Source: an uncultured Bacilli bacterium
GTDB lineage: Bacteria > Bacillota_I > Bacilli_A > RF39 > UBA660
Assembly: GCA_947629035.1 (NCBI GenBank)
Contig: CANRCE010000009.1
Span: 1 to 33,460, forward strand
Length of the DNA stretch: 33,460 nt
Direction of reading: 5' to 3'
Made by a program: the position numbers and the translations under genes. Under the pieces are notes generated by a model. That model was not told the origin of the DNA and made no database searches. It was given only the letters and a program-made list of their open reading frames with translations. Shown here piece by piece: positions 3,396-24,232 of this stretch; the first letter of the stretch is position 1; the number at the start of each line of letters is the position of its first letter.

Positions 3396-3406
3396 ATCTC
3401 TATCTC

Positions 3407-4712: not shown

Positions 4713-4724
4713 AATATCTAACTC

Positions 4725-5318: not shown

Positions 5319-5354
5319 TTTCTTATGCTCCCTTACCATTTCTACTCTATGTAT

Positions 5355-5383: not shown

Positions 5384-5511
5384 GAGATTTAATTACATTA
5401 AAAATAAAAATGTTAATTTTAATAAAAATAATTAAAAAAATTTAATAATATTATTTTAAAATTTTACTAATTAATATTAATGAACTGTAATATATTTTTT
5501 TATTGACAAAG

Positions 5512-5535
5512 AAAAAAAGCATATTGTCTATGCTT
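5512..5535 (-). terminator. Terminator of cassette 1
   Basis: A 7-bp stem (AAGCATA at 5517-5523 with TATGCTT at 5529-5535) is followed on the - strand by seven T. It includes the stop codon of the A1 gene. Confidence 0.8.
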
Positions 5536-6250: not shown

Positions 6251-6290
6251 TTTTTATCTTCCTCCTCTCTTATTATATTAAATATTTTCT

Positions 6291-7028: not shown

Positions 7029-7063
7029 TGTTTTTCGTATCCTCCTCTCTATTATATAATTTT

Positions 7064-7092
7064 ATTATATATATATATATATATATTGTCAA
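7064..7092 (-). promoter_or_regulatory. Cassette 1 promoter with (AT)10 spacer, 17 bp
   Basis: On the - strand TTGACA (7087-7092) and TATAAT (7064-7069) are both perfect. The 17-bp spacer 7070-7086 is pure alternating A/T, and the whole AT tract (7067-7086) is 10 repeats. 17 bp is the optimal sigma-A spacing, so this copy is predicted ON. A second TATAAT at 7051-7056 is too far from the -35 to pair with it. Confidence 0.85.
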
Positions 7093-7171
7093 GACTTTTT
7101 TTGCTTTTTGGACAAAATTTGACTATTTTAAACTTCAATAAAATGTCATTACATATTTTTGTATTAGACAT

Positions 7172-7197
7172 AAAAAAAGCATATAAAATTTATGCTT
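7172..7197 (-). terminator. Terminator of cassette 2
   Basis: AAGCATA at 7177-7183 pairs with TATGCTT at 7191-7197 and is followed on the - strand by a T run. It includes the A2 stop codon. Confidence 0.75.
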
Positions 7198-7915: not shown

Positions 7916-7955
7916 TTTTTATTGTCCTCCTTTTTTATTATATTAAACATTTACT

Positions 7956-8699
7956 CTATCCAGCAGATGCAAAACTTGCTTTAACTTGACCAGTACTTGT
8001 TGCTGAAAATGTTACAGTTCCAGTGTATTTTCCTTTTTCTTCTTTTACAGATTCAGTTTGATCTTCATTTTCATCATTTGCTAAATATACTAAAAGATAG
8101 TATACAACTGGTGTGTTTGCTGATATAGTAGTACTATCATGAATATCTGTACCAAGATTATCTATAGAATTAAAAGTATCCTTTTCTGTAACTTGGCTAG
8201 CTGTTAAGCTATCTACTCCTGTATCTGCACTATATGAAGGTTCACCATCTGTAGTTTTGAATATAGCATAACTCCATTTAGTGTCTTCTTCTGCCACATT
8301 CGTACCATTTACTTTTAAATCTAAATAAATACTTGCAGATGTTAAATCTTGCGTTGATTTAGCTTCTATTCTCCATACATGACATCCAGTAAAGCCACCA
8401 GAAATACATTGTTTGCCTAATGCTTTATTAACTTCAGCAACATCAATTTCCGTTGAGCTTTTTCCAAAATTTGCTGGTACTAGATTTTCATTAACAGTTT
8501 CATCTGCATTTTTCCATTTTACTTTAGATACACTAATTTCTAATCCTGAAGCCAAATCTGTATTTGTTTCTCCTTTAATAGTAGTCTTATCTTCTTGACT
8601 TGCACTAAAATATGCAAAGGTTGCGCCGATTATTGCTACGATTAATGTAGCCACACCTATTACTCCATAGAATATTCCCTTTCCATTATTCTCATTCAT
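7956..8699 (-). CDS. Cassette 2 B-type TasA/CalY-like protein (B2)
   Basis: A 247-residue B-type paralogue, the longest of the five. The signal segment ends in FAYFSAS. NENLVPANF precedes the loop CISGGFTGCHVWRI. VVYYLLVYLANDENEDQ and the TFSATSTGQVKASF end are intact. It resembles B5 most in the region after the signal (ASQED, TIKGE, NENLVPA), which suggests block exchange between cassettes 2 and 5. It is the first gene behind the promoter with the longest AT spacer (21 bp), so it and A2 are predicted to be weakly expressed or off in the sequenced state. Confidence 0.75.
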   Translation of the reverse strand: MNENNGKGIFYGVIGVATLIVAIIGATFAYFSASQEDKTTIKGETNTDLASGLEISVSKVKWKNADETVNENLVPANFGKSSTEIDVAEVNKALGKQCISGGFTGCHVWRIEAKSTQDLTSASIYLDLKVNGTNVAEEDTKWSYAIFKTTDGEPSYSADTGVDSLTASQVTEKDTFNSIDNLGTDIHDSTTISANTPVVYYLLVYLANDENEDQTESVKEEKGKYTGTVTFSATSTGQVKASFASAG

Positions 8700-8732
8700 T
8701 TTTTCGTATCCTCCTCTCTACTATATAATTCT

Positions 8733-8765
8733 ATTATATATATATATATATATATATATTGTCAA
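8733..8765 (-). promoter_or_regulatory. Cassette 2 promoter with (AT)12 spacer, 21 bp
   Basis: Perfect TTGACA (8760-8765) and TATAAT (8733-8738) on the - strand are separated by 8739-8759, which is 21 bp; the AT tract 8736-8759 is 12 repeats. This is 4 bp over the optimum, so RNA polymerase contact with both hexamers should be poor. A weaker TATATA inside the tract could partly substitute. Confidence 0.85.
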
Positions 8766-8842
8766 GGTTTTTTTGCTCTTTGAACAAAATTTTACCATTT
8801 TAAATTTCAATAAATATCATTGCATAATTTTATATTAAATAT

Positions 8843-8866
8843 AAAAAAAGCATATTTTCTATGCTT
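8843..8866 (-). terminator. Terminator of cassette 3
   Basis: AAGCATA at 8848-8854 pairs with TATGCTT at 8860-8866, with a T run on the - strand. It includes the A3 stop codon. Confidence 0.75.
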
Positions 8867-9587
8867 AATCTTGAGTAAAATCTGCTGTTACTTGACCTGT
8901 TCCTGCTACACTTAATGTTACTGTTCCAGTGTATTTTCCTTCGCCATTTTCTACTTCACTATTTTGATCAGTTTCTTCATTTTCGTAATATATCATTACG
9001 TAATAAACAGTATCGCTAGAAGTAAGTGCTCCTCCACTATGTATATCTGCAGCTGTACCACCAATTGAATTAAAAGTATCACCATCTTTAACAGTTGTTG
9101 CAGTTAATGATGTTACTTTTTTCTCTGTTCCATTTTCCTCTGTGCCAGTAAATACTACATATCTATACTTACTTTCATCAGAAGCTGGATTTCCATTTAC
9201 TTTTAAATCTAAATAAATACTTGCAGCTTCCAAATTTTGTTGTGAACTAGCTGTTATCTTCCATACATGACATCCAGTAAATCCACCATCAATACATTTT
9301 TTTCCTAATGCTGCGTTAACTTCTGTTTCAGTAAGATCATTTGCTTCTTTCTTAAAATCAGCTGGTACTAATTTATCACTAGCAACAGTAGCATCATTCT
9401 CAAATTCTATCTTAGATACTTCAAGCTTTAAACCTTTTGCTAAATCAGTATTCGTCTGTCCTGTAATTGTACCAGTATTGGTTTGACTAGCATTAAAGTA
9501 TGCAAAGGTTGCCCCGATTATTGCTACGATTAATGTTGCTACACCTATTACTCCATAAAATAGGCCCTTTCCATTATTCTCATTCAT
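8865..9587 (-). CDS. Cassette 3 A-type TasA/CalY-like protein with B-like N-terminus (A3)
   Basis: A 240-residue paralogue. It starts MNENNGKG as B genes do, but continues GLFYGVIG and FAYFNAS as A genes do. The mature part is A-type (LVPADF, CIDGGFTGCHVWKI, YYVMIYYENEETDQ, VTADFTQD). After the signal it has NTDLAKGLKLEVSKIEF, a B-like NTDLA motif where A proteins have NNTL. The end reads TVTLSVAGTGQV, shared only with B3. It is therefore a chimera. It also lies 120 nt from B3 rather than 40 and has its own extended -10 promoter, so it is probably expressed independently of the AT-spacer switch. Confidence 0.75.
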   Translation of the reverse strand: MNENNGKGLFYGVIGVATLIVAIIGATFAYFNASQTNTGTITGQTNTDLAKGLKLEVSKIEFENDATVASDKLVPADFKKEANDLTETEVNAALGKKCIDGGFTGCHVWKITASSQQNLEAASIYLDLKVNGNPASDESKYRYVVFTGTEENGTEKKVTSLTATTVKDGDTFNSIGGTAADIHSGGALTSSDTVYYVMIYYENEETDQNSEVENGEGKYTGTVTLSVAGTGQVTADFTQD

Positions 9588-9613
9588 TTCTTGTATCCTC
9601 CTTTACAATAGAA

Positions 9614-9622
9614 ATTATATCA
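9614..9622 (-). promoter_or_regulatory. Separate extended -10 promoter for A3
   Basis: TGATATAAT on the - strand (TATAAT at 9614-9619 with TG one base upstream) lies in the unusually long 9588-9707 gap, 26 nt before the A3 ATG. The position 17 bp upstream is not a good -35. No AT repeat is present. Confidence 0.55.
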
Positions 9623-9707
9623 AAATTTTTTAGATAATTAGATAAAATAATATTTATCAACCAAATCTCTTTCTTTAATATATTTTATTTATCATATTAG
9701 TTTTCTA

Positions 9708-10445
9708 TTAATTAGCAACAAAGCTTGCTTTTACTTGACCTGTTCCTGCAACACTTAATGTTACTGTTCCAGTGTAGTGTCCATCTTCGCCTGTTACAGA
9801 AGCAGTTTGATCTTGACCTTCATCATTTGCTAAATATACTAAAAGATAATATACAATTGGTGTTTCTTTTGTCATAGTAGCACCACTATGAATGTCTGTA
9901 CCAAGATTACTTATAGAGTTAAAAGTATCCTGCTCTGTAACCTGGGTAGCTGTTAAATTATCCACTTCAGTATCTGCAGAATATGGAGCTTCATCACCAT
10001 TAGTTTTAAATATAGCATAACTCCATTTAGTGTCTTCATCTACTACTTTGGCACTATTTACTTTTAAATCTAAATAAATACTTGCAGTTGTTAAATCTTG
10101 TTTTGAACTAGCTTCTATTCTCCATACATGACATCCAGTAAATCCACCAGAAATACATTTATTACTTAATGCATTATTAACGTCAGTCGCATCAAGACTT
10201 CCTACTTCATTTTTAAATTTAGCTGGTACTAATTTATCACTACCAGCAGTAGCACCTTGCCATTTTACCTTAGATACACTAATACTTAATCCTGATGCTA
10301 AATCTGTATTCGTTTCTCCTTGAATCGTATCATCATTAGTTTGACTTGCACTAAAATATGCAAAAGTTGCACCAATGATAGCTACGATTAATGTAGCTAC
10401 ACCTATTACTCCATAGAATATTCCCTTTCCATTATTTTCGTTCAT
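9708..10445 (-). CDS. Cassette 3 B-type TasA/CalY-like protein (B3)
   Basis: A 245-residue B-type paralogue. The signal segment ends in FAYFSASQT. LVPAKF, CISGGFTGCHVWRI and VYYLLVYLANDEGQDQ are conserved. The last 20 residues read TLSVAGTGQVKASF instead of the TFSATSTGQVKA of other B genes and match the neighbouring A3 gene, a sign of local gene conversion. ALSNKC before the cysteine loop is shared with B4. It is transcribed from the (AT)10 promoter at 10481-10509. No clear terminator separates it from A3. Confidence 0.75.
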   Translation of the reverse strand: MNENNGKGIFYGVIGVATLIVAIIGATFAYFSASQTNDDTIQGETNTDLASGLSISVSKVKWQGATAGSDKLVPAKFKNEVGSLDATDVNNALSNKCISGGFTGCHVWRIEASSKQDLTTASIYLDLKVNSAKVVDEDTKWSYAIFKTNGDEAPYSADTEVDNLTATQVTEQDTFNSISNLGTDIHSGATMTKETPIVYYLLVYLANDEGQDQTASVTGEDGHYTGTVTLSVAGTGQVKASFVAN

Positions 10446-10480
10446 CTTTTTTCGTATCCTCCTCTCTACTATATAATTCT

Positions 10481-10509
10481 ATTATATATATATATATATA
10501 TATTGTCAA
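10481..10509 (-). promoter_or_regulatory. Cassette 3 promoter with (AT)10 spacer, 17 bp
   Basis: On the - strand TTGACA (10504-10509) and TATAAT (10481-10486) enclose 10487-10503, 17 bp of alternating A/T (10 repeats in 10484-10503). Predicted ON. Confidence 0.85.
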
Positions 10510-10563
10510 GGTTTTTTTGCTCTTTGAATGAAATTTTACCATTCTAAACTTCAATAAAATATC

Positions 10564-10600
10564 ATTAAAAAAATTGAAGATTATTATTTAAAATCCTCAA
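10564..10600 (-). terminator. Second hairpin downstream of cassette 4
   Basis: An imperfect 10-bp stem (AAATTGAAGA at 10571-10580 with the complementary TCCTCAATTT near 10594-10603, one mismatch) is followed on the - strand by a T run. It is absent from the other inter-cassette gaps and lies beyond the main terminator, so it may be a back-up. Confidence 0.5.
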
Positions 10601-10614
10601 TTTCACTAGATAAG

Positions 10615-10637
10615 AAAAAAGCATATTATTTATGCTT
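10615..10637 (-). terminator. Terminator of cassette 4
   Basis: AAGCATA at 10619-10625 pairs with TATGCTT at 10631-10637, with a T run on the - strand. It includes the A4 stop codon. Confidence 0.75.
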
Positions 10638-11355
10638 AATCTTGAGTAAAATCTGCTGTTACTTGACCTGTCCCTGCAGCATTTAATGTTACTGTTCCAG
10701 TGTACTGTCCCTTTGTACCTTGTACTTGACTTGTTTGATCATCATTTTCATTTTCATAATATATCATTACGTAATAAGTTTTTTTATTACTACTATTATC
10801 AAGGGGTCCACTGTATATCTGTACACCTGAACCCACAATTGAGTTAAAAGTATCAGTATCTTCGACACTACTAGCAGTTAAGTTTTCTACTCCTTCTGAT
10901 CCAGTTTCACTACCAGTAAATACAACAAAACTATATTTACTTTCACTAGCAAGTGCGTCACCTGTTACTTTTAAATTCAAATTAATATTTGCAGCTTCTA
11001 AATACTGACTTGAGCTAGCTATTATCTTCCATACATGACATCCAGTAAATCCACCATCAATACATTTTTTTCCTAATGCTGCATTAACTTCAGCTTCAGT
11101 AAGTGAAGTTGCATCTTTTTGAAAATCTGCTGGTACTAATTTATCGCTAGCAACTGTTTGACCGTCTAATTTCCAATTTACTTTGGAAACTTCAAGGTTT
11201 AAATCTGACTGTAAAGTATTATTAGCTTCACCTTTAATAGTTTCAGCATCCTTTTGACTTGCATTAAAGTAAGCAAAAGTTGCGCCAATTATTGCTACAA
11301 TTAATGTTGCTACACCTATTACTCCATAAAATAGTCCTTTACCATTGTTCTCCAT
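10636..11355 (-). CDS. Cassette 4 A-type TasA/CalY-like protein (A4)
   Basis: A 239-residue A-type paralogue. The signal segment at 8-30 ends in FAYFNASQKD. LVPADFQ, CIDGGFTGCHVWKI, YYVMIYYENENDDQ and VTADFTQD are all present. The segments SSQYLEAANI and LDNSSNKKTYYVMIYY make it the closest relative of A1 even though four genes of the array lie between them. VGSGVQIYSGP replaces the SGLGTEIYRGA of A1, so divergence is concentrated in the presumed loop before the last strands. It lies 39 nt after B4. Confidence 0.75.
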   Translation of the reverse strand: MENNGKGLFYGVIGVATLIVAIIGATFAYFNASQKDAETIKGEANNTLQSDLNLEVSKVNWKLDGQTVASDKLVPADFQKDATSLTEAEVNAALGKKCIDGGFTGCHVWKIIASSSQYLEAANINLNLKVTGDALASESKYSFVVFTGSETGSEGVENLTASSVEDTDTFNSIVGSGVQIYSGPLDNSSNKKTYYVMIYYENENDDQTSQVQGTKGQYTGTVTLNAAGTGQVTADFTQD

Positions 11356-11394
11356 TTTTTATTGTCCTCCTTTTTTACTATATCAATTTTTTCT

Positions 11395-12132
11395 CTAAGC
11401 ACCAGCTACAAAAGTTGCTTTAACTTGACCAGTACTTGTTGCAGAAAATGTTACTGTTCCAGTGTATTTTCCTTCTTCGCCTGCTACAGAAGTAGTTTGA
11501 TCTTGACCTTCATCATTTGCTAAATATACTAAAAGATAATATACAATAGCTTGATTTTTTGTTACGGTACCGTCTTGATGAATATTTGTTCCTAGTCCAC
11601 TAATAGAATTAAAAGTCTCTTTATCTGTAACACTACTAGCAGTTAAAGTTGCTACTCCTGTTTCTGCATTATATGAAGGTTCACCATCTGCAGTTTTAAA
11701 TATAGCATAACTCCATTTAGTTTCATCTTCCACATTTTGACCATTTACTTTTAAGTCTAAATAAATACTTGCAGATGTTAAATCTTGCGTTGATTTAGCT
11801 TCTATTCTCCATACATGGCATCCAGTAAATCCACCAGAAACGCATTTATTACTTAATGCATTATTAACATCACTTTCATCAAGTTCCGTTGCACTATGTG
11901 AAAATTTTGCCGGTACTAGTTTATCACTAACATTAGAATCTGTATCTGTCCATTTTACTTTAGACACGCTTATAGTTAAACCTGATGCTAAATCAGTATT
12001 TGTTTCGCCTGTAATGCTACTATCGGTTTTACTTGCACTAAAATATGCAAAGGTTGCCCCAATAATAGCTACAATTAATGTTGCTACACCTATTACTCCA
12101 TAGAATATTCCCTTTCCGTTATTTTCGTTCAT
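11395..12132 (-). CDS. Cassette 4 B-type TasA/CalY-like protein (B4)
   Basis: A 245-residue B-type paralogue. It matches B1 over WTDTDSNVSDKLVPAKF and again over SISGLGTNIHQDGTVTK, but shares ALSNKC and ANDEGQDQT with B3, so it is a mosaic. The loop reads CVSGGFTGC, the only copy with V after the first cysteine. The end is TFSATSTGQVKATFVAGA. It is the first gene behind the 17-bp (AT)10 promoter at 12168-12196, with an AGGAGG ribosome site. Confidence 0.75.
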   Translation of the reverse strand: MNENNGKGIFYGVIGVATLIVAIIGATFAYFSASKTDSSITGETNTDLASGLTISVSKVKWTDTDSNVSDKLVPAKFSHSATELDESDVNNALSNKCVSGGFTGCHVWRIEAKSTQDLTSASIYLDLKVNGQNVEDETKWSYAIFKTADGEPSYNAETGVATLTASSVTDKETFNSISGLGTNIHQDGTVTKNQAIVYYLLVYLANDEGQDQTTSVAGEEGKYTGTVTFSATSTGQVKATFVAGA

Positions 12133-12167
12133 TATTTTTCGTATCCTCCTCTCTACTATATAATTCT

Positions 12168-12196
12168 ATTATATATATATATATATATATTGTCAA
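12168..12196 (-). promoter_or_regulatory. Cassette 4 promoter with (AT)10 spacer, 17 bp
   Basis: On the - strand TTGACA (12191-12196) and TATAAT (12168-12173) enclose 12174-12190, 17 bp of alternating A/T (10 repeats in 12171-12190). Predicted ON. Confidence 0.85.
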
Positions 12197-12275
12197 GGCT
12201 TTTTTTGCTCTTTGAACAAAATTTTACCATTCTAAACTTCAATAAAATACCATTACATAATTTTGTATTAAACAT

Positions 12276-12299
12276 AAAAAAAGCATATTGACTATGCTT
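12276..12299 (-). terminator. Terminator of cassette 5
   Basis: AAGCATA at 12281-12287 pairs with TATGCTT at 12293-12299, with a T run on the - strand. It includes the A5 stop codon. Confidence 0.75.
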
Positions 12300-13014
12300 A
12301 ATCTTGAGTAAAATCTGCTGTTACTTGACCTGTTCCTGCAGCATTTAATGTTACTGTCCCAGTGTATTTTCCCTTATCGGATTCTACTTGACTTGTCTGA
12401 TCTAATTCTTCGTTTGCATAATATATCATTACGTAATAAGTTACTCCACTGCTATCAAGATTTCCGTTATGTATCTGTGCACCTAAAGTAGCGATTGAGT
12501 TAAAAGTACCTTTATCTTTAATTTCATTAGCTGATAAAGATGTAACTTTTTCTCCTGAATCTGGACTTTCAGTACCAGTAAATACAGCGAAACTATATTT
12601 ACTGTCTTCAGCAAGTTCGCTACCTGTTACTTTTAAGTTCAAGTTAATATTTGCTGCTTCTAAATATTGAGTTGAGCTAGCTTTTATTTTCCATACATGA
12701 CATCCAGTAAATCCACCATCAATGCATTTTTTAGTTAATGCTGCATTAACTTCTGTTGCAGTAAGATCTGCTCCTTCATTTTGAAAATCTGCTGGCACTA
12801 AATTATCGCTGGCAACTGTTTCATTTGCTAAATCCCATTGTACTTTGGACACTTCAAGTTTTAAATCCGACTTTAAAGTGTTATTAGCCTGACCTTGGAT
12901 ACCTTCAGCTGTTTTGCTTGCATTAAAATATGCAAAGGTTGCACCTATTATTGCTACGATTAATGTTGCTACTCCAATCACTCCATAGAATAGTCCTTTA
13001 CCATTATTTTCCAT
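12298..13014 (-). CDS. Cassette 5 A-type TasA/CalY-like protein (A5)
   Basis: A 238-residue A-type paralogue. The signal segment ends in FAYFNASKTAEG. LVPADFQNEG precedes ALTKKCIDGGFTGC. SSTQYLEAANI resembles A1 and A4, whereas the stretch KGTFNSIATLGAQIHNGNL is its own. The end is VTADFTQD. It lies 39 nt after B5. The - strand gap with its AAGGAGG site is nearly identical to that between B4 and A4. Confidence 0.75.
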   Translation of the reverse strand: MENNGKGLFYGVIGVATLIVAIIGATFAYFNASKTAEGIQGQANNTLKSDLKLEVSKVQWDLANETVASDNLVPADFQNEGADLTATEVNAALTKKCIDGGFTGCHVWKIKASSTQYLEAANINLNLKVTGSELAEDSKYSFAVFTGTESPDSGEKVTSLSANEIKDKGTFNSIATLGAQIHNGNLDSSGVTYYVMIYYANEELDQTSQVESDKGKYTGTVTLNAAGTGQVTADFTQD

Positions 13015-13053
13015 TTTTTATTGTCCTCCTTTTTTACTATATCAATTTTTTCT

Positions 13054-13794
13054 CTAAGCACCAGCTACAAAAGTTGCTTTTACTTGACCAGTACCTGATG
13101 CAAAAAATGTTACTGTTCCAGTGTATTTTCCTTTTTCATCTTTTACAGATTCAGTTTGATCCGTGCTTTCATCATTTGCTAAATATACTAAAAGATAATA
13201 TACAATTTTTTCATCTTTTGTTACGGTACCACTATCATGAATATTTGTTCCTAGTCCAGTAATAGAATTAAAAGTATCTTTTTCTGTAACTTGGCTAGCT
13301 ATTAAGTTTTCTACTCCTGTTTCTGCATTATATGAAGTTTCATCACTATCAGTTGTAAATATAGCATAACTCCATTTAGTTTCATCTTCCACATTTTCAC
13401 CATTTACTTTTAAGTCTAAATAAATACTTGCAGCTGTTAAATCCTGTGCTGACTCAGCCTCTATTCTCCATACATGACATCCAGTAAAGCCACCAGAAAT
13501 GCATTTTTTGGTTAATGCTTTATTAACTTCTTCAGTATCAATTGATTTTGAATCTTTTCCGAACTTTGCTGGTACTAGATTTTCATTAATTTTTTCTTCT
13601 ACACCTTGCCATTTTACTTTAGATACACTAATACTTAATCCTGATGCTAAATCAGTATTTGCTTCTCCTTTAATAGTACTATTATCTTCTTGACTTGCAC
13701 TAAAATATGCAAAAGTTGCACCTATTATAGCAACAATAAGTGTAGCTACACCTATTACTCCATAGAATATTCCCTTTCCATTATTTTCGTTCAT
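13054..13794 (-). CDS. Cassette 5 B-type TasA/CalY-like protein (B5)
   Basis: A 246-residue B-type paralogue and the first array gene in transcription order. The signal segment ends in FAYFSASQED. NENLVPAKFG, CISGGFTGCHVWRI and VYYLLVYLANDESTDQ are conserved; the end is TFFASGTGQVKATFVAGA, with FFASG in place of FSATS. It is driven by the promoter with the shortest AT spacer (15 bp). Long alternative frames on the opposite strand here are shadows of its coding bias. Confidence 0.75.
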   Translation of the reverse strand: MNENNGKGIFYGVIGVATLIVAIIGATFAYFSASQEDNSTIKGEANTDLASGLSISVSKVKWQGVEEKINENLVPAKFGKDSKSIDTEEVNKALTKKCISGGFTGCHVWRIEAESAQDLTAASIYLDLKVNGENVEDETKWSYAIFTTDSDETSYNAETGVENLIASQVTEKDTFNSITGLGTNIHDSGTVTKDEKIVYYLLVYLANDESTDQTESVKDEKGKYTGTVTFFASGTGQVKATFVAGA

Positions 13795-13943: not shown

Positions 13944-15374
13944 TTATATTTTTTTCTTTTTCTTAATAATTATTAAAGCAATAATTCCTACTAAAACAAG
14001 AGAAAGAATAACGATTGGTAAAATTAAACTATTAGATTTTTCTATATTAATGATATATTCCCTAGATATTCCATCTTCAGCTGTTACTATTACTTTAACT
14101 TGACTTCCATTTGCTAAATTATTATTACCTTCGATTACAACTTTTGCATTCTTATCTTCAGTTACATAACTAATATCTAATCTATCTATCTTTTTAATTT
14201 TTAATGTATATTCCAATTTATTTTTATTAAAATCTAAATTATAATCTTTAACAGATAAACTCTTTAAATAATTATTATGAGATAAATCTTTACCAGCTTC
14301 TAATCTTGTAACAGTTAATTTATAAGTTCTAACTTTACCATCTTCAGATGTTACAATTATATTTATAACATTTGATCCTACTTTTAAAGAAGTATCCCCC
14401 TCTATCTTAACTGTAGCTTTAGAATCTTTAGCCTTATAATCAATTTTAACTTCATCAACATCATTTTCTACATTTAATTTATAATCATTAACATCATCTT
14501 TAAGCGTTAACTCAGTACCATTTACACTTAAACTAGACAATGTATTATTGCTACTCTTACTAGGAGTATTTGTAGTTGTATTATTGTTAGTACTAGGTTT
14601 AGTTGTATTATTATTGTTGTTATTATTACCAGTATCAGGTTTCTTTTCTGGTTCAGGTTTCTTTTCTGGTTCAGGTCGCGTTATATTTATTGTATAAATT
14701 TTCTTAGTTCCAGCTTCACTAGTAACTATTACAGTAAAAGTATTTTTACCATAATTTAATGTCTTAGTACCAGTACCACTTACAGTTGCTTTTGAATCAG
14801 TAGGTTTTGCTCCTATATTAGTACTTGAAACATTAGTACTTACTTGCAAATCATAAGTAGTTTTACTAGAATTAAAACTCAAATTAGTATTAGTTGCTGA
14901 TAAACTAGATAAAGTATCAATTGAAGATGCAATTCTTAAAGTTATTCTTTTAGTATCTATATCATTAGATTCAAAATTTTCATCATTAAGTTGAATATTA
15001 GAAGCAATTAACTCTACATCTGCTCCAGTTGTAATACTTGATGATGCTGTAACACTAAAAGTAGCTATGTTAAAAGTTCCTGACTTGTTATCAGCAGTAT
15101 ATACATCAATATTTCCTGAAGCTGTATCTCCATTTTCCCAATTACTTGTTTTACTAAAATTACTTAACGTTAAACCATATCCCCCACTAACTTCAACATG
15201 CACTGAAGAAACACTACCTCCACTAGCACTTCCACTTAAAGTACATGTCGTACTTGCTCCTGGTGCTAATTTAGTATTATTACAAGATATGTTTACACTA
15301 CCTGTTAAAGCACTTACCTTAAATGGTATTATCATAAATAATACACTAATAAATATTATTACTACTTTTTTCAT
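13944..15374 (-). CDS. Membrane-anchored cohesin-like and cadherin-like beta-sandwich protein
   Basis: A 476-residue surface protein. Residues 1-22 are a signal peptide ending FKVSA. Residues 25-148 look like a cohesin domain: a Gly/Ser-rich beta-sandwich with LAPGAS near the start, LTLSNFSKTSNWENG in the middle, SGTFNIATFSVTA, and a closing IQLND. Three cadherin-like beta-sandwich repeats (about 155-234, 279-358 and 369-445) each end in TSEAG/TSEDG/TAEDG plus YxxxI/VxR-type strands. A Pro/Glu and Asn/Thr linker (235-277) separates the first two. Residues 450-470 are a C-terminal membrane helix followed by KKKKKI, so the protein is membrane-anchored and faces outward. It starts 3 nt after the LRR-dockerin gene, which suggests they work as a pair. 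The cohesin call is by motif and context. Confidence 0.7.
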   Translation of the reverse strand: MKKVVIIFISVLFMIIPFKVSALTGSVNISCNNTKLAPGASTTCTLSGSASGGSVSSVHVEVSGGYGLTLSNFSKTSNWENGDTASGNIDVYTADNKSGTFNIATFSVTASSSITTGADVELIASNIQLNDENFESNDIDTKRITLRIASSIDTLSSLSATNTNLSFNSSKTTYDLQVSTNVSSTNIGAKPTDSKATVSGTGTKTLNYGKNTFTVIVTSEAGTKKIYTINITRPEPEKKPEPEKKPDTGNNNNNNNTTKPSTNNNTTTNTPSKSSNNTLSSLSVNGTELTLKDDVNDYKLNVENDVDEVKIDYKAKDSKATVKIEGDTSLKVGSNVINIIVTSEDGKVRTYKLTVTRLEAGKDLSHNNYLKSLSVKDYNLDFNKNKLEYTLKIKKIDRLDISYVTEDKNAKVVIEGNNNLANGSQVKVIVTAEDGISREYIINIEKSNSLILPIVILSLVLVGIIALIIIKKKKKI

Positions 15375-15377
15375 TTT

Positions 15378-18300
15378 TTACCCCTCCAAACTATCTATTT
15401 TACCACGATAATATTGAAACAATTTCGTAACATCATTTAAAGTTATATTTTTATTTTTATCAATAACTTTACCTGCTTTTATAAAATAATCTTCCATTTT
15501 TATTTTCTTTCTATAATATTGGAAATCTTTTGTAACATCATTTAAATCAATCTTTCCATCACCAGTTGTATCTCCCCTAACAATTAGTGTATACTCAATA
15601 GATTCTCCATCCTTAAATTTTATTTTAAGTACACATCCTGTTCCTATAATATTTGTACCTTTTCCTTTTCGATCAACTACTGTAATATCTCCAGTTGTAT
15701 CTATTTTTTCTTTCAATGCATCAACAGTAATATTAGTACCTAAATTTAAAATATATTTCTTGCCATCTTCCTCATTTGAACTTAAATCTAAATCATGAAA
15801 GTCAACATATTCTTCATCTATTTCATTTAAAATAGTATAAGTATGTAATACATTGTTATTATATTCTATCTTAACTTGCATATTTCTTGTAATATCTCCA
15901 CTTGTAACCAATTTTCCATCTTTATCATAAACACTAACTTTCAACTCATTATTACTAGGATTTATCTTAGTTATAAAATCTTGATATTCATATTTTTGAT
16001 TCTTTAAACTTATTATATGTGCTGTATGTTCTAAATCCTCATCAATTGTAAGTTTAAACAATTTATATTTTTTTACTACCTCTTGATTATATTTTATTTC
16101 TAATTCTGTATCAGTAGTATCTATCGTAACATTACTAGATTTTGTAATATTTCCCTCATGATAATTTTCAGTACCTAAATAAATATAATCTTTATTTAAA
16201 TCATACACTGTAGAATTATAAGTTATAATATCTAAAGAATCTATAACACTATTACCATACATAATCTTTAAAGTATCTTCTTCATAAATAACACTTGCTT
16301 TACTCACTACAGGGTAAACAGTTATATCTGACCTACTATAAGAATTAGTACCTAAATCATAATATTTTTGCGAAAAATCATATTTTGATGACTTATATGA
16401 AACAACATCCAATGTCTCTAAAGCTATTTTATTACTATTATCATTATAATAAATTACAATATTTCTACTATAACCAGTATTGTTATATGTTATATCATTA
16501 TTATTAGCATTAGTAATATCTATTTTCGTTTTATCAAAAGTACTATCTTTGCCAATATAAACATAACCATCACCAAATTTATAAGTATCACTAGAATAAG
16601 TAATTATTTTAATTTTATCTAAAGATATATCATTATATTTAATTTCTAAAGTATTATCTTCATCATTAACTACTAAATCATTAGTATCAACATTAGTTAC
16701 AGTAATATCTTTTTCCTTATCAAAAGTATGATATTTAGTAAAGATATATACAGATGCTGCTTTGTAATTAGTATTAGTAACATTATAAGTTACAATCTTA
16801 TAAGTAACTACTACTTTACCCTTATAAGTAATTGTCAATGTATTAGCATTACTATCATAATTTTTAACAGCTCCAGTTAAACCTTTTATCGAAATACTAT
16901 TTTCTTTAAATTCTTTATCTTTAGTATAAATATAACCAGTATTTCCTGTATTTCCAAATTTATAGCTATCACTATTAACTACAATTACAGCAATTGTTGT
17001 AATTAAATCATTAGTATCATCCAATTCAATTTTGATAACATTATTGTTATTATCGTAACTAAGGGTTGCATTACTAGCAGTAATACCCCCATCATAATTA
17101 TTATTTCCTAAGAAAATATAACCATCTCTTAGTGTTTCTTTATAATTTTCATTAGCTTCTTCAATATTAATGTGTACAAGCTTAAATACCTTTATGGCAT
17201 TACCATTCTCATCTTTAACAGTTAAAGTATTAGCATCAGAATTTACTTCAAAGGTTGCATTACTATCACTAGTTAATTCTAATTTAGACTCAATCGTATC
17301 TTTATCAATGTCAAACGCTGTATAAATATATCCTTTTTCATTATTAATGATATAACCAGTATTATCAGATTTAGTAGTAAGCTCAACTACTTTAAGATTA
17401 TCATATTTAATTTTAAATTTTGTACTAGTTGCTAAAGTACCCATATCACTAATATAAAGATTGTGATTATATATAGCATTAAAAGAATAAGTACCAGTTT
17501 TTGATACTGTAATTGTATTATTTTTTATTACTACATTTTTATCACCATTAATAGATGAATATGTAACTTTAATATCTTCTTGTTTTACATTTTTCAAAAA
17601 AGGCATTTTTATAGAATCAGAAATTTCTACATATTTTTCATTAGTTTCACTTTGTTTTTCACTAATTTCACTTGTTAAAATATTACTAATATCAAATGGC
17701 GTATCCTTATAAACCGTTATTGCTTTAGAAGAAACAAAATTATTACCATCTAATTTTAAAGCAATTAATTTTTTAAAATTACTAAGATCTATACTTGTTA
17801 ATTGGTTATTATCTATATATAATTTTTGTAATAATTTATTTTCGCTATGATTTATATTAAATTCACTAATTTTATTATTTGATAAATTTAGTGATGTTAA
17901 ATTAGTATTATTTTTTAAATCAATATTAGTTAAATTATTATTAGCAACTGATAAATTAATCAAAGACGTACTATCTGAAACATCAATTTTATCAAGATTA
18001 TTATCATTAAGATTTATATATAATAATCCTGTACAGCCATTAAGATTAACACTTGTTAATTTTTTATTGTTATATACTTCTAGTCGAGGCAAATTACTAA
18101 TACCACTAAAATCTAAACTAGTCAATTGAGGATTATTAGTTATATCTGGATATTGTAATCTAGCATAATTCTTATAATCAGCATCTTTACCAGCATATTT
18201 ACCATCTGTACCACCAACAAATTTAATACTTACTAAATCTGAATTATTTTTTATTCTTTCTGTAGTTAATTTTGTAAGATTACTTAAATCAAGTGATTTA

Positions 18301-18779
18301 GCATCACTATTCATTACTTCAATTACAATTAATTGAGGTAAATCAAGTACTACATCTTTATTAGAAAATGTAATATACTGAAAAGATAAATATTCAAGTT
18401 TTTTTAATTTATTTATATTTGTTATATCAATTGTCATATTACTTAAAATTAAATTCTTTAAATTAGTTAACTTATCAATACCAGTTAAATCAGTAATAGG
18501 ACTATCTTTACTTCCACATGTTAACTGAGTTATTTTATTAAGTTCACTATCATTCAAATCATCTTGTTCTGTCTTCTTTTCTACATCAGTTAATTTATTG
18601 TAACTATCAACAACACATTTATATAAATTAGCATCATTAAAGGGATTACCTTCTCTTAAAGTCAACCTATCATTATTAATATCTATACTACTCATTATTT
18701 GTATAGAATTATTTTCTCCAATGAACATTAAAATTGCTATTCCCAAAAATAGAAATAACATTATCATTCTTTTTTTCAT
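15378..18779 (-). CDS. Giant secreted leucine-rich-repeat protein with C-terminal dockerin-like module
   Basis: 1133 residues from the ATG at 18779, chosen because AAGGAG lies 9 nt upstream; the in-frame GTG at 18797 would contain that ribosome site. Residues 1-22 are a hydrophobic signal segment. About residues 70-345 are leucine-rich repeats of ~21-24 aa (LTSLNLSNNKISEF, LTSIDLSNFKKLIALKLDGN). About seven diverged ~70-aa beta modules follow, each with a YIYLG/YVYIG-type strand and an ITYNS-type strand. The C-terminal ~65 residues are dockerin-like: GDTTGDGKIDLNDVT fits the calcium loop, and a second copy DKNKNITLNDVT is two residues short. Each is followed by FQYYR. It likely binds a partner through the LRRs and docks onto the cohesin-like protein encoded 3 nt downstream. 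Ligand unknown. Confidence 0.8.
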   Translation of the reverse strand: MKKRMIMLFLFLGIAILMFIGENNSIQIMSSIDINNDRLTLREGNPFNDANLYKCVVDSYNKLTDVEKKTEQDDLNDSELNKITQLTCGSKDSPITDLTGIDKLTNLKNLILSNMTIDITNINKLKKLEYLSFQYITFSNKDVVLDLPQLIVIEVMNSDAKSLDLSNLTKLTTERIKNNSDLVSIKFVGGTDGKYAGKDADYKNYARLQYPDITNNPQLTSLDFSGISNLPRLEVYNNKKLTSVNLNGCTGLLYINLNDNNLDKIDVSDSTSLINLSVANNNLTNIDLKNNTNLTSLNLSNNKISEFNINHSENKLLQKLYIDNNQLTSIDLSNFKKLIALKLDGNNFVSSKAITVYKDTPFDISNILTSEISEKQSETNEKYVEISDSIKMPFLKNVKQEDIKVTYSSINGDKNVVIKNNTITVSKTGTYSFNAIYNHNLYISDMGTLATSTKFKIKYDNLKVVELTTKSDNTGYIINNEKGYIYTAFDIDKDTIESKLELTSDSNATFEVNSDANTLTVKDENGNAIKVFKLVHINIEEANENYKETLRDGYIFLGNNNYDGGITASNATLSYDNNNNVIKIELDDTNDLITTIAVIVVNSDSYKFGNTGNTGYIYTKDKEFKENSISIKGLTGAVKNYDSNANTLTITYKGKVVVTYKIVTYNVTNTNYKAASVYIFTKYHTFDKEKDITVTNVDTNDLVVNDEDNTLEIKYNDISLDKIKIITYSSDTYKFGDGYVYIGKDSTFDKTKIDITNANNNDITYNNTGYSRNIVIYYNDNSNKIALETLDVVSYKSSKYDFSQKYYDLGTNSYSRSDITVYPVVSKASVIYEEDTLKIMYGNSVIDSLDIITYNSTVYDLNKDYIYLGTENYHEGNITKSSNVTIDTTDTELEIKYNQEVVKKYKLFKLTIDEDLEHTAHIISLKNQKYEYQDFITKINPSNNELKVSVYDKDGKLVTSGDITRNMQVKIEYNNNVLHTYTILNEIDEEYVDFHDLDLSSNEEDGKKYILNLGTNITVDALKEKIDTTGDITVVDRKGKGTNIIGTGCVLKIKFKDGESIEYTLIVRGDTTGDGKIDLNDVTKDFQYYRKKIKMEDYFIKAGKVIDKNKNITLNDVTKLFQYYRGKIDSLEG

Positions 18780-19251: not shown

Positions 19252-19884
19252 TTATTTTAATTGTTTTAATTTTTCTTCAATATTATCACTATTTGTAAGA
19301 TAAGTTCCCATAACTACAATATCAACTTTTAATTCTTCTAAATTTTTGTAGTTAGTATCATTAATACCACCATCTACTTCAATTTCAAATGTATAATTAC
19401 CTTTAACCCTTAATTTAGTTAACTCTTTTAGTTTATTATAAGTATTTACAATAAATTCTTGTCCACCATAACCAGGTTCAACACTCATAATTAGTAATAA
19501 ATCTATCTTATCTAAATAAGGAATAACCTCTTCAATAAGAGTATCAGGTTTTATAGCCATTCCAACTTTATAACCTAAAGCTTTTATTTCTTCTATTATT
19601 TTATTAATATCTTGTTTTACTTCATAATGAAAAGTTATATATTCTATATTTCGTAAATTAATTTTTTCTATATACTCTATAGGATTTTCCACCATCATAT
19701 GTAAATCTATTTTTTTTCTACTTACATCACTTAATTTATCTATTTCATAAATACTAAATTGTTTATTACTTACAAAACTACCATCCATTAAATCAATATG
19801 AAGATAATCTATCCTACTGTCATTTAACCGTAAAACATCTTCTATTCTATTTTTTGAATTTAACACTGATACTGCTATTTTCAT
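19252..19884 (-). CDS. rpe: Ribulose-phosphate 3-epimerase
   Basis: The cytosolic TIM-barrel enzyme interconverts ribulose 5-phosphate and xylulose 5-phosphate in the pentose phosphate pathway. The 210 residues carry metal ligands H29 and D31 (HIDLMDGSF), H62 (DLHMMVENP), the phosphate loop SVEPGYGGQEF, and catalytic D171 in VDGGIN. The ATG overlaps the rsgA stop by 4 nt (ATGA). The order prkC-rsgA-rpe is common in Firmicutes and supports the call. The usual downstream thiamine pyrophosphokinase gene is absent; the acidic protein gene lies there instead. The length is slightly short for the family but complete. Confidence 0.93.
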   Translation of the reverse strand: MKIAVSVLNSKNRIEDVLRLNDSRIDYLHIDLMDGSFVSNKQFSIYEIDKLSDVSRKKIDLHMMVENPIEYIEKINLRNIEYITFHYEVKQDINKIIEEIKALGYKVGMAIKPDTLIEEVIPYLDKIDLLLIMSVEPGYGGQEFIVNTYNKLKELTKLRVKGNYTFEIEVDGGINDTNYKNLEELKVDIVVMGTYLTNSDNIEEKLKQLK

Positions 19885-20720
19885 TTTTTATCAAGCCTCA
19901 CAAAATTAATATAATTATTATATCTACTTTCTAATATTTGTCCTTTTTCTACAAGTTTCTTTACATAACAACCATCTTCATTTAAATGCATACAATCACG
20001 ATATTTACAATATTCCAAATTATCAAACATATCTTTCATATTATCCCGAATATCAATTGGTTTCATATCATAAAACTCTAATGAAGAAAAACCTGGTGTA
20101 TCCACAACTAATCCTCCATTTAATTCAAATAATTCAACATGCCTAGTCGTATGACGTCCTCTTCCTAAAGCCTTTGATATTTCCCCTGTTTTAAGCTTTA
20201 AATTACTATCTAATTTATTTAATAAACTAGATTTACCAGCCCCTGTTTGCCCTGTAAAAACTGTAAGTTTATCAGTAAATAAATTATTAAAATTATCTAT
20301 TTTTTCATTTGTCGTTACAACATAACCAATACTTTTATAATAATTTATATATTTATCAATGTTTTTCTTTTCATCTTTCTTAAGCAAATCCAACTTAGTA
20401 AAACAAATAATAGGTTTTATATTATTAAAAGATATTATCGTTAACATTTTATCTAAAAGACTACTATTAAAATCAGGATCTTTAACACTAGTTACAATTA
20501 AGGCTTGATCGATATTAGCAACACTTGGTCTTATAAGTTTATTTTTTCTAGGGTATATTTCTAAAATATAATTATTAACATCATCAATTTCTACTATATC
20601 CCCTACCAAAGGAGTAATATTTACATTCCTAAATTTTCCTCTTGGTTTACACACATATTTACCATTTTTAGTCTTTACAACATAGTCATTACTAATATTT
20701 TTAATAATCACGCCTTGCAT
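19881..20720 (-). CDS. rsgA: Small-subunit ribosome biogenesis GTPase RsgA
   Basis: The 279-residue circularly permuted GTPase acts in late 30S maturation. An N-terminal OB fold (about 1-65) is followed by the permuted G domain: G4 TKLD at 108-111, then G1 GQTGAGKSS at 157-165, the switch with GRGRHTTRH, and G3 DTPGF at 207-211. A zinc site follows (C238, C243, H245, C251 in CKYRDCMHLNEDGC). Start and ribosome site lie 9 nt after prkC. All family motifs are intact. It overlaps rpe by 4 nt. Confidence 0.95.
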   Translation of the reverse strand: MQGVIIKNISNDYVVKTKNGKYVCKPRGKFRNVNITPLVGDIVEIDDVNNYILEIYPRKNKLIRPSVANIDQALIVTSVKDPDFNSSLLDKMLTIISFNNIKPIICFTKLDLLKKDEKKNIDKYINYYKSIGYVVTTNEKIDNFNNLFTDKLTVFTGQTGAGKSSLLNKLDSNLKLKTGEISKALGRGRHTTRHVELFELNGGLVVDTPGFSSLEFYDMKPIDIRDNMKDMFDNLEYCKYRDCMHLNEDGCYVKKLVEKGQILESRYNNYINFVRLDKK

Positions 20721-20729
20721 ATTAAACTC

Positions 20730-22466
20730 CTATTCATCATCCTTTGGAAGTAAATCTTCAATTGGATCATCCTTCACTTTAACCTTTGCTATCTTAATTC
20801 TCAAAGTAATTCCTTTAATGATAGTATCTCCAGCACTTCTACTCTGATAGATTACTTTTCCAGCTTCATACTCATCTGTCTCAACTTCTTCAAAATTTAA
20901 TTCAATACCATATTCTTTAGCAAAAGCCTGTGCATCTGATAAAGTCCATCCCTCTTTTACCATATCAGGATATGTATTATTTATTTTTGGTATATATAAA
21001 ATTATACTATCATCTTTTACTAATTTTTTCTCTTCATCTTTATTATATTTTATACTCTGATCAATAATTAAATCTTCTTTACCTTCATATTTTTCTTTAT
21101 CATCAACATCTTTTTTCTCAATTGAAACTTTTATTCCTATAGCTTCAAGTTTACCCTTTATTTCATAAGCATTCATACCAGTAAAATCTTCAAGCAAATA
21201 ATAAGTTGAACCTGTAGATTCCACAATTACAATCGTACTTCCTTTAGTTTTCGTACTTCCTGCTTTAGGCTTTGTCGTAATTACCAAACCCTCTTCAACC
21301 GTATCACTAGATTGAGATTCTGTAGTATATTTTAAACCAGATTTTTCTATTTGAGATATAGCATCCTCTAAAGTTAAACCTACAACATTAGGTACTCTTA
21401 TTTCTTTTACATCCTGATTAAATATAAAAAGCATAAATATAGCTCCAATAATTAATAAAACTAGTAATACTATAGCCAAAATAAATGGTAACTTACTTTT
21501 TTCATTTTTCTTTAAAATTAATTCTTCATCCATTTTAGGCTTATCCACTACACTTGGCTTTTCTGGTTTGTTTATAACAGGCATTACTTTAGTTTCATCT
21601 AAATCATTCTCTGGATACTCATAAACAACTCTTTTTTCGTTTTCTTTATCTAAAGCTGTTACTAAATCATTATGCATCTGTCTTACTGAATCATAACGAT
21701 TTTTAGGATTTTTTGCAGTAGCTTTTAAAATAATATTTTCAACACTTTGGGGAATAGTTGGATTCTGTCTTCTAACACTTGGTATTTTCTCTTTCATATG
21801 TTTAAGAGCAATTTCTACAGCATTATCACCTTTAAAAGGAACAGAACCTGTTAGTAATTCATACATAAGAATACCTAAAGAATAAATATCACTTTTAATA
21901 GTTGCACCTTTACCATTTGCTTGTTCTGGAGGTAGGTAGTGAACACTTCCCATTACCGAATTAGTCTGGGTAAGCTGTGTAGCATTAATAGCCATAGCAA
22001 TACCAAAATCAGTAATTTTAACAATACCATTGTCCATAATTATTACATTTTGGGGTTTAATATCCCTATGAATTATATAAGCTTCATGAGCATGAGCCAA
22101 ACCATCCGTAAGTTGACTCATAATATCTATCACTTCACTCAAAGTAAGAGCTCCCCGTTTTTGAATTAATTGTTTTAAAGTCTTACCTTCAATATATTCC
22201 ATAACGATATAATGATTACCATCTTCCACACCTACATCATAAACTTCAACTATATTAGGATGTGATAAATTTGATACCGATAAAGCTTCTCTTTCAAAAC
22301 GACGAATAAATTTTTCATCCCCTGATAAATCTCCTCTTAATACTTTAATAGCAACTTTTCTATCCAAAATATTATCTTGAGCTAGATATACATTTGCCAT
22401 TCCACCTTCGCCAATTGATCTAATGATTTCATATCTACCATTAATCTTCTGCCCCTTTGATAACAT
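20730..22466 (-). CDS. prkC: PASTA-domain Ser/Thr protein kinase
   Basis: The membrane kinase couples cell-wall status to growth. Residues 12-270 form a Hanks-type kinase with G-loop IGEGGMANV, catalytic lysine K41 (AIKVL), HRD at 133-135 in HRDIKPQN, and DFG at 153-155. A juxtamembrane linker leads to a membrane helix at 327-348, then three extracellular PASTA domains (about 356-423, 424-495, 497-568) that would bind muropeptides or lipid II. The C-terminus is acidic. It overlaps the phosphatase gene by 1 nt (TAATG), the classic stp-prkC arrangement. 578 aa with three PASTA repeats is within the family range. Confidence 0.95.
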   Translation of the reverse strand: MLSKGQKINGRYEIIRSIGEGGMANVYLAQDNILDRKVAIKVLRGDLSGDEKFIRRFEREALSVSNLSHPNIVEVYDVGVEDGNHYIVMEYIEGKTLKQLIQKRGALTLSEVIDIMSQLTDGLAHAHEAYIIHRDIKPQNVIIMDNGIVKITDFGIAMAINATQLTQTNSVMGSVHYLPPEQANGKGATIKSDIYSLGILMYELLTGSVPFKGDNAVEIALKHMKEKIPSVRRQNPTIPQSVENIILKATAKNPKNRYDSVRQMHNDLVTALDKENEKRVVYEYPENDLDETKVMPVINKPEKPSVVDKPKMDEELILKKNEKSKLPFILAIVLLVLLIIGAIFMLFIFNQDVKEIRVPNVVGLTLEDAISQIEKSGLKYTTESQSSDTVEEGLVITTKPKAGSTKTKGSTIVIVESTGSTYYLLEDFTGMNAYEIKGKLEAIGIKVSIEKKDVDDKEKYEGKEDLIIDQSIKYNKDEEKKLVKDDSIILYIPKINNTYPDMVKEGWTLSDAQAFAKEYGIELNFEEVETDEYEAGKVIYQSRSAGDTIIKGITLRIKIAKVKVKDDPIEDLLPKDDE

Positions 22467-23206
22467 TATAAATCACCACTTTCCTTTTTTAAATAAGCAA
22501 TTGATATATTATCTGTTCCTCCACGACTATTACTTTTTCTAATTAATTTAACAACCATATCCTCAATAGACATATCACTATTTAAAATCTTTTCAATTTG
22601 TTCCTGTGTTAACATATTAGTAAGACCATCACTACATAAGAAAATACCCTTTACCATTGTATCAACATCAAAAATATCTATTTCAATAGGATCATTAGCT
22701 CCAAGGGCTCTCATTAATACATTTTTTCTTGGATGATATTTTGCTTCTTCTTCAGTAAGTTCTCCTGTTGTAACTAATAAATTTACTAAAGTATGATCAT
22801 GTGTTACTTTATGTAATTTATCATTTTTGATAACAAAACCAGAACTATCCCCAATATTTCCAAATAAAATATAATCATTAGTTTTTATAGCTACTACTAA
22901 AGTAGTTCCCATCCCTTTACTTTCAGGATGTTGTGCTGTATATTTAAATATTTCATTATTTATTTCTGTTACTTTTTCTCTTAACCATTCAATAGCATCT
23001 TCTTTTTTACCAATCGTATCTAATTTATAAAATTCATCAGTTAAGTGTTCAATAGCAATACTAGAAGCAACTTCTCCTGCTTTATGACCACCCATACCAT
23101 CAGCTACTGCTAAAATATATTCATCTTTATCATTATTAATTATTGTTACATTATCTTCATTATGTGTTCTAACCTTCCCTGCATCAGTTAAATAAAATGT
23201 TTGCAT
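22466..23206 (-). CDS. stp: PP2C-family Ser/Thr phosphatase
   Basis: 246 residues from the ATG at 23206, which has GGAGG 5 nt upstream; the in-frame GTG at 23218 overlaps that ribosome site. It has the PPM metal-site motifs: HNEDN near the start, VADGMGGHKAGE, GNIGDSS, CSDGLTNM and GTDNIS. It is the soluble partner that reverses PrkC phosphorylation. It sits between rlmN and prkC, 1 nt overlapping the kinase. Confidence 0.94.
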   Translation of the reverse strand: MQTFYLTDAGKVRTHNEDNVTIINNDKDEYILAVADGMGGHKAGEVASSIAIEHLTDEFYKLDTIGKKEDAIEWLREKVTEINNEIFKYTAQHPESKGMGTTLVVAIKTNDYILFGNIGDSSGFVIKNDKLHKVTHDHTLVNLLVTTGELTEEEAKYHPRKNVLMRALGANDPIEIDIFDVDTMVKGIFLCSDGLTNMLTQEQIEKILNSDMSIEDMVVKLIRKSNSRGGTDNISIAYLKKESGDL

Positions 23207-23221
23207 ATTTTCCTCCACTTC

Positions 23222-24232
23222 TTAAAAATTGGCTCTAAGTTGACCACAAGCAGCATCGACATTACTACCAAACTCACGCCTTATTGTTACACTTATTCCA
23301 CTTTTCTTAAGTATATCATAAAATTTCATAATTTGAAAGTGCCTTGAACGCTTAAAACAAATATTTTCAGTTTCATTATAAGGAATTAAATTAACATAGC
23401 AATTCAATCCCTTAAGTAAACTAGCAAGTTTTAAAGCATCACTATCTTTATCATTTACATTTTCCAATAAAATATATTCAAAAGTTACTCTTCTATTAGT
23501 AATAGCGATGTATTCTTTAATAACTTCCATTAATTCATTCAAAGGATATGCTTTATTAATAGGCATAATTTCACTTCTTAATTCATCAGAAGGAGCATGA
23601 AGACTTATTGCCAAATTAACTTGACCTTTTTCTTTCATAAATCTTTTAATCCCAGGAATAATTCCACAAGTTGATACCGTAATATGCCTTGTTCCTAAAT
23701 TAATACCCTTATTATCATTTACAATTTTAATAAAATTCATAACATTATCGTAATTATCAAAAGGCTCTCCAATACCCATTATAACAACATGAGTAATTCT
23801 TGCTTTAATATCCTCTTCGATAAGAAGTATTTGTTCAACCATCTCATAAGTATTTAAATTTCTTACTTTTTTAAGTCTTCCTGATTCACAAAAACGACAT
23901 CCCATATTACATCCTACTTGTGAAGATACACAAATACTTATACCATAATCATGATACATTAAAACAGATTCTATTTTATTACCATCACAAAGTTCAAATA
24001 AATATTTCTTAACATCCTTATCCTCTTGTTTTTTAACAATTTTTATTTTCTTTAAAGTAAAATCGGCTTTTAACATATCTTTTATATTATTACCAAGATT
24101 ATTAATTTCATCAAAATTATTTACCCTTTTTTTATATAAAGCCTCAAAAACTTGCGTTGCTCTAAATTTTTTATCCTGTTTTTCTACAAAATATTGTTCT
24201 AAATCCTCTTTTGTTGTACCATATATATTCAT
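23222..24232 (-). CDS. rlmN: Dual-specificity 23S rRNA/tRNA adenine-C2 methyltransferase RlmN
   Basis: A 336-residue radical-SAM enzyme that methylates C2 of A2503 in 23S rRNA and A37 in tRNAs. The CxxxCxxC cluster ligands are C108, C112 and C115 (CNMGCRFC), followed by IMGIGEP (SAM contact) and a C-terminal catalytic cysteine near 330 in AACGQLRANF. It is the first gene of the housekeeping operon, transcribed from the extended -10 promoter at 24257-24265. The next gene follows within 20 nt. Confidence 0.95.
   Translation of the reverse strand: MNIYGTTKEDLEQYFVEKQDKKFRATQVFEALYKKRVNNFDEINNLGNNIKDMLKADFTLKKIKIVKKQEDKDVKKYLFELCDGNKIESVLMYHDYGISICVSSQVGCNMGCRFCESGRLKKVRNLNTYEMVEQILLIEEDIKARITHVVIMGIGEPFDNYDNVMNFIKIVNDNKGINLGTRHITVSTCGIIPGIKRFMKEKGQVNLAISLHAPSDELRSEIMPINKAYPLNELMEVIKEYIAITNRRVTFEYILLENVNDKDSDALKLASLLKGLNCYVNLIPYNETENICFKRSRHFQIMKFYDILKKSGISVTIRREFGSNVDAACGQLRANF

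Follow-up and report, generated by a model that had tools for sequence, protein, structure and literature searches.

The window analysed here is a stretch of 33,460 nucleotides (positions 1-33460 of contig C9) from an uncultured gut bacterium with a small genome (1.25 Mb in 80 contigs; assembly 90% complete). It contains two adjacent genes that are likely to form a private tether, in which a leucine-rich-repeat (LRR) protein is docked by its dockerin to the cohesin of a neighbouring anchor. Comparison of sequences and predicted folds indicates that the cohesin-dockerin modules found here are very probably private surface tethers and not cellulosomal ones. We establish the identities of the domains, the operon structure, its recurrence across genomes, the co-inheritance of the two modules and their coupled loss.

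In the mechanism that we propose, the LRR protein would be exported, and its C-terminal dockerin would attach in a calcium-dependent manner to the cohesin that forms the tip of the co-translated anchor. The anchor would be held in the membrane by its C-terminal transmembrane (TM) helix and raised by three cadherin-like spacers, and the LRR and beta-repeat part would be presented on the cell surface without a covalent bond, where the LRR part may recognise something. The LRR pair would be one branch of a lineage-wide system of secreted dockerin proteins, each with a neighbouring cohesin anchor, whose most widespread cargo would be a SagB-like cell-wall glucosaminidase. An earlier, sequence-only reading had suggested a surface-displayed LRR recognition protein; the display is supported as a proposal, whereas recognition by the LRR part is something we infer.

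The LRR gene and its anchor gene

The features of the two genes are collected in Table 1. As first read, the anchor gene lies 3 nt downstream of the LRR gene, with bases 15375-15377 between the stop and the next ATG. A Shine-Dalgarno sequence within the end of the preceding gene, as found here, is a classic mark of translational coupling. An upstream GTG at 18797 is an alternative start for the LRR gene and would give a protein of 1139 aa.

Table 1. Features of the LRR-dockerin gene and the anchor gene, in window coordinates
Feature	Position	Strand	Basis or detail
Secreted LRR-dockerin protein gene	15378..18779	-	ATG start, 1133 aa
LRR region, residues ~97-356	17730..18509	-	PF12799 LRR_4 E 5.6e-9; LRR_EndoS E 6e-5
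About 8 tandem beta-rich repeats, roughly 55-85 aa	15576..17390	-	Translation read directly
C-terminal dockerin and stop codon, two repeats	15378..15578	-	Orthologue profile vs PDB; PF00404
Shine-Dalgarno of the anchor gene, GGAGGGG	15381..15387	-	Inside the last codons of the LRR gene
Membrane anchor gene	13944..15374	-	476 aa
Predicted signal peptide, residues 1-23	15306..15374	-	Hydrophobicity; conserved in orthologues
Cohesin domain, residues 24-150	14925..15305	-	AlphaFold2, Foldseek, VIA, hhalign
Three cadherin-like beta-sandwich repeats (PF12733) and Asn/Thr/Pro-rich linker	14037..14924	-	Pfam E 1.3e-25
Predicted C-terminal TM segment, then Lys tail	13965..14027	-	Hydrophobicity 3.3; direct reading

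The LRR protein had been noted to end in a dockerin-like pair of calcium loops, and comparison of an orthologue profile with PDB and Pfam identifies this tail as a genuine type I dockerin. The profile, built from 15 LRR-type tails, matched PDB type I dockerins over nearly the whole module (5nrm_B 3.4e-6, 2ccl_B 4.3e-6, 1ohz_B 7.7e-6), and 13 of the 15 orthologous tails matched Pfam Dockerin_1 (PF00404) at E 0.1 or better. The module occupies the C-terminal 66 aa, and its two repeats are identical at 14 of 24 positions, including 13 of the last 16. Loop 2 is degenerate, having lost the Asp at position 1, which may explain why the window's own copy gave no PF00404 match. Loop positions 10-11, which we take to be the known specificity positions of type I dockerins, are LN in both repeats; within this one genome, they read LN/LN in the window protein, AV/AV in a protein on contig C7, and VA/VA in one on C5. 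The three-helix pattern of a dockerin also appears in an AlphaFold2 fusion model (see below), in which the dockerin is of low confidence.

The LRRs themselves are genuine by Pfam. The beta-rich repeats had no Pfam match, and the last of them runs straight into the dockerin. An LRR paralogue on contig C39 of the same genome is 51% identical to the window protein, and its dockerin is 91% identical over the last 66 residues. No anchor gene lies alongside the paralogue; with a nearly identical dockerin and no anchor of its own, it may share the anchor on C9.

The downstream gene encodes a membrane-anchored protein, as the sequence-only reading had it, judging by a predicted signal peptide and C-terminal TM segment. 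Its first domain is indeed a cohesin, and a search for another fold returned the cohesin fold. Neither cohesin nor dockerin was named when the window proteins were scanned as single sequences against Pfam, NCBIfam and PDB, and a PDB search with the cohesin profile returned nothing relevant; thus, sequence alone does not reach the solved cohesins. AlphaFold2 predicted the domain at pLDDT ~97 (in a dockerin-cohesin fusion chain, folded with 29 relatives), and the best matches of the predicted structure were 2jh2 in Foldseek (E 1.9e-6) and, in VIA, 2vo8 (Z 15.4, 122 residues at 1.9 A). The top structural ranks were nearly all cohesins, the best of them being the non-cellulosomal ones of Clostridium perfringens. 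In addition, hhalign matched the anchor N-terminal domain to Pfam-recognised cohesins of the same family (93.5%, E 2.2e-7). Other structure matches (CLIPPER, pilins, integrins, alpha-2-macroglobulin) ranked mostly below the cohesins and were taken as members of the same broad jelly-roll class. Two cysteines are invariant among LRR-type cohesins (C10 and C23 in alignment A8) and perhaps form a disulfide.

No cellulase-type enzyme was seen in the window, which agrees with the original remark that no glycoside hydrolases are near. Directly upstream of the LRR gene is a housekeeping cluster (19252-24232, reverse strand) with rlmN, a PP2C phosphatase, a PASTA kinase, ribulose-phosphate epimerase and, by eye, a probable rsgA-type GTPase (19881-20720). 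About 14 small secreted proteins follow one another at 2814-13794 (reverse strand), most with SipW-type signal peptides and at least two above the cut-off for TIGR04088. Ten of these (5534-13794) resemble tandem duplicates of an alternating pair, whose members begin MENNGKGLFYG... and MNENNGKGIFYG..., respectively. The start of the contig (3-593, forward strand) encodes collagen-like GPTGPTG repeats and then a BclA C-terminal domain (PF18573 E 1.9e-14).

Recurrence of the pairing and its cargoes

In related genomes, the pairing of dockerin gene and anchor gene recurs across many genera. GTDB genome contigs were scanned with a dockerin-only pattern, [LIM][NTG]D[VI]xKL[YF]Q[YF], and the 14 loci obtained all come from MAGs with Bacilli, Tenericutes, Erysipelotrichaceae or Firmicutes in their titles. 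These loci are united by dockerin type, and not all of their cargoes are established LRR proteins. An anchor-type gene lies downstream at 14 of 14, either directly or past a further dockerin gene; at L124, a single anchor gene follows two tandem LRR-dockerin genes, and at L134, the LRR-type dockerin gene and the anchor are separated by a dockerin gene of a different type.

We then considered all Pfam-grade modules in a family sample of 117 genomes, each its own genus, of which 50 had a cohesin and 89 a dockerin. Among 62 tabulated cohesin matches over the cut-off, 30 were preceded by a same-strand Pfam-grade dockerin 82-367 bp to the 5' side, 8 were followed by a dockerin on the 3' side, spaced as a single large ORF would allow, and in no case did a dockerin lie on the opposite strand within 2 kb. 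The chance expectation is about 0.05 by our own estimate. Single-chain ORFs with both dockerin and cohesin, often very large, are possible self-docking or chain-forming proteins. An 827-aa TM protein (L015:4425-6908, G000:C12) has a degenerate dockerin-like stretch directly before a Pfam-grade cohesin.

Judged from profile matches and gene order, the same arrangement serves a second cargo, a SagB-like cell-wall glucosaminidase, almost family-wide. The most widespread dockerin protein of the family, whose copy in this genome is on contig C7, matches the glucosaminidase SagB (NF052642, 74 bits, below the narrow model's cut-off), and the glucosaminidase label denotes such below-cut-off profile matches. 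A C-terminal Pfam dockerin was present in 67 of 69 SagB-like glucosaminidase ORFs (68 genomes). At all 60 glucosaminidase loci examined, the start of the following gene lies between -50 and +25 nt, and its product is a secreted protein with a signal peptide, an anchor of the cohesin/cadherin-like/TM kind; PF12733 was found in 59 of the 59 such genes scanned, and Pfam Cohesin also in 13.

Beyond the family, a full-length anchor profile found 15 genomes in two further families of the class (f13 and f19). At the inspected loci in which the N-terminal region of the anchor is kept, a dockerin-bearing gene precedes it, and four dockerin proteins scanned from these two families gave weak matches to peptidoglycan-hydrolase models. 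The absence of glycoside hydrolases, as originally read, is true of the locus but misses the wider context: with a cell-wall glucosaminidase as its commonest cargo, the system has an enzyme of glycoside-hydrolase type at its centre. On balance, we lean towards the view that not only this family but also two or more others in its class use cohesin-dockerin as a standard modular tether, with the SagB-like pair as core cell-wall machinery and duplicates of changed specificity displaying LRR proteins and other cargo.

Several variants of the arrangement were seen. At L013:4999-8884 (G000:C5), two dockerin genes stand before one for a 220-aa protein that combines an Ig/cohesin-like domain with an NPNTG-TM tail, an arrangement that suggests a sortase-anchored version of the dockerin/cohesin-anchor pair. 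At L084:4014-13953 (G043:C11), three consecutive dockerin proteins, two of them near-identical, precede one 948-aa anchor-like protein. Dockerin/anchor pairs at L087:866-5397 and L092:1-7908 adjoin genes that by eye are of capsule-type regulatory kind (PHP phosphatase-like and CpsD-like), and L092 also has a type IV pilin-like gene.

Co-inheritance, docking models and competing readings

Trees of 35 dockerins and 34 cohesins were compared. Both split the LRR type from the glucosaminidase type by one well-supported branch (97/90 in the dockerin tree, 100/98 in the cohesin tree), and they have several sub-groups in common. Both types occur together in some genomes, among them the present one, so the pairs have been duplicated or inherited as units. 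In two f13 genomes (G276 and G287), the cohesin is gone and the anchor starts directly with a cadherin-like repeat. A search at E 0.01 found no dockerin in either genome. The anchor also lacks an adjoining glucosaminidase-dockerin gene, while its metA-like neighbour (by eye) is still present; five other f13 genomes have both cohesin and dockerin. There is one counter-example, G065, in which the glucosaminidase ends without a dockerin but the neighbouring anchor keeps a cohesin-like domain. In principle, a joint function of the two partners could be enough to explain their co-inheritance and coupled loss, even if they did not bind each other directly.

We sought the contact itself in structure predictions. 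Because both window genes share one frame, replacing the stop codon by Gly yields a continuous chain of dockerin, signal peptide and cohesin, which was folded using alignments A5 and A6; A3 was left out, as its cohesin rows were aligned onto the dockerin. No confident interface emerged from either AlphaFold2 run on the fusion (pTM 0.59 and 0.64). The cohesin was predicted surely and the dockerin unsurely (pLDDT ~35-75; shallow dockerin alignment), and this low confidence accounts for the lack of an interface in the models.

This result bears on an unlikely alternative in which the two proteins belong to a common pathway without docking to each other. The target of the anchor's N-terminal beta-sandwich would then be a glycan or some other surface protein, and the dockerin-like tail would be just a calcium-stabilised end module. 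This reading would fit the fusion models with no predicted interface, the window sequences falling below the Pfam cut-offs for both domains, and the structure lists, where other surface domains similar to the cohesin-type jelly roll also turn up (the CLIPPER adhesin domain, pilins and integrins). However, the best matches are specifically cohesins, and the nearest solved relatives of the partner module are type I dockerins. Loss of the cohesin is also accompanied by absence of the dockerin, and the module trees run parallel.

The means by which the LRR protein is held can also be questioned, as its N-terminus in the window (MKKRMIMLFLFLGIAILMFIGENNSIQIMSS) has no clear A-x-A signal-peptidase site, so the protein might itself remain in the membrane. 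It could then be held by its own uncleaved N-terminal segment, with the cohesin-dockerin contact serving clustering or orientation and not tethering. We regard this as improbable, since in most LRR orthologues the hydrophobic stretch is followed by a plausible cleavage site (VYA, VLA, TYA, INA, VNA).

Finally, it is very hard to sustain that the pair is part of a cellulosome-like multi-enzyme complex degrading polysaccharides, with a scaffoldin elsewhere in the genome: other dockerin/cohesin proteins do exist there, including the 827-aa chain of cohesin and degenerate dockerin, but the 90% complete assembly yielded one Pfam-grade cohesin, a handful of dockerins and no multi-cohesin scaffoldin, the anchors examined hold one cohesin each beside their own cargo, and the cargoes are LRR proteins, a peptidoglycan glucosaminidase and two proteins without enzyme matches. 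No dockerin-bearing plant-polysaccharide enzyme was found among the Pfam-detected dockerin proteins of the genome, which are the glucosaminidase-like one and the same two proteins; the remaining dockerins found are those of the window and C39 LRR proteins. With neither scaffoldin nor polysaccharide enzymes, the cellulosome reading was rejected. The non-cellulosomal use of the modules that the sequence-only reading had suggested is supported, and it recurs across many genera. Taken together, real domains, recurrent pairing, coupled loss and parallel trees argue for private tethers rather than cellulosomes.

Relation to known systems and implications

To our knowledge, nearly all described cohesin-dockerin pairs belong to cellulosomes or to relatives that digest outside polymers. 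Peer et al. (2009) reportedly surveyed non-cellulosomal modules. According to structure titles, such cohesins and dockerins are already known from C. perfringens and Archaeoglobus. The C. perfringens cohesins (2jh2, 2vo8, 2w1n) have the same fold, are the nearest solved relatives and are likewise used pairwise outside cellulosomes. There, judging in part by PDB titles, both modules reside on secreted glycoside hydrolases, whereas in the present case the cohesin is carried by a TM anchor whose gene lies beside that of its own cargo.

Secreted LRR proteins with dockerins also occur in Ruminococcus flavefaciens, with 28 LRR modules among its dockerin proteins, but that genome has a large cellulosome with scaffoldins, and the accessible part of the account does not note a private single-cohesin anchor gene (PMC2930009). 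In cellulosome surface anchoring, a cohesin surface protein holds a dockerin complex (CipA type II dockerin to SdbA), although it is anchored by SLH modules and serves a multi-enzyme scaffold; the portion available of this review of monoderm surface display treats cohesin-dockerin only under cellulosomes (PMC5817068). On the glucosaminidase side, the SagB-like commonest cargo of the related pairs recalls Staphylococcus aureus, where the membrane protein SpdC scaffolds the SagB glucosaminidase that trims nascent peptidoglycan (PMC10581084). SpdC is a CAAX-protease homologue, whereas in the present system its role would fall to a single-TM cohesin anchor. The Limousia mucinolysome is another cohesin-dockerin system of gut Firmicutes outside plant-fibre breakdown, but it has multi-cohesin scaffoldins with mucin-degrading enzymes (PMC12997984). 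Both modules were present in 4333 human-gut genomes in one survey, which pursued only mucin enzymes.

We found no paper on dockerins in RF39 in the open-licence literature. In the portions of that literature available, the system is not described among dockerins in Erysipelotrichaceae or with peptidoglycan hydrolases, and there is no account of private single-cohesin TM anchors beside their cargo or of a near-universal dockerin-bearing glucosaminidase.

If the proposed tethers are real, cohesin-dockerin would be a general-purpose surface tether in gut bacteria with reduced genomes, and its commonest pair would fix a peptidoglycan hydrolase at the membrane, for which Staphylococcus uses the unrelated SpdC. 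Many natural, compact and probably orthogonal cohesin-dockerin pairs would be on offer for engineering, and proteins currently named "cadherin-like" would gain a testable function. Such tethers could also help explain the dockerins and cohesins in thousands of gut genomes, most of which were set aside by the mucin-enzyme survey.
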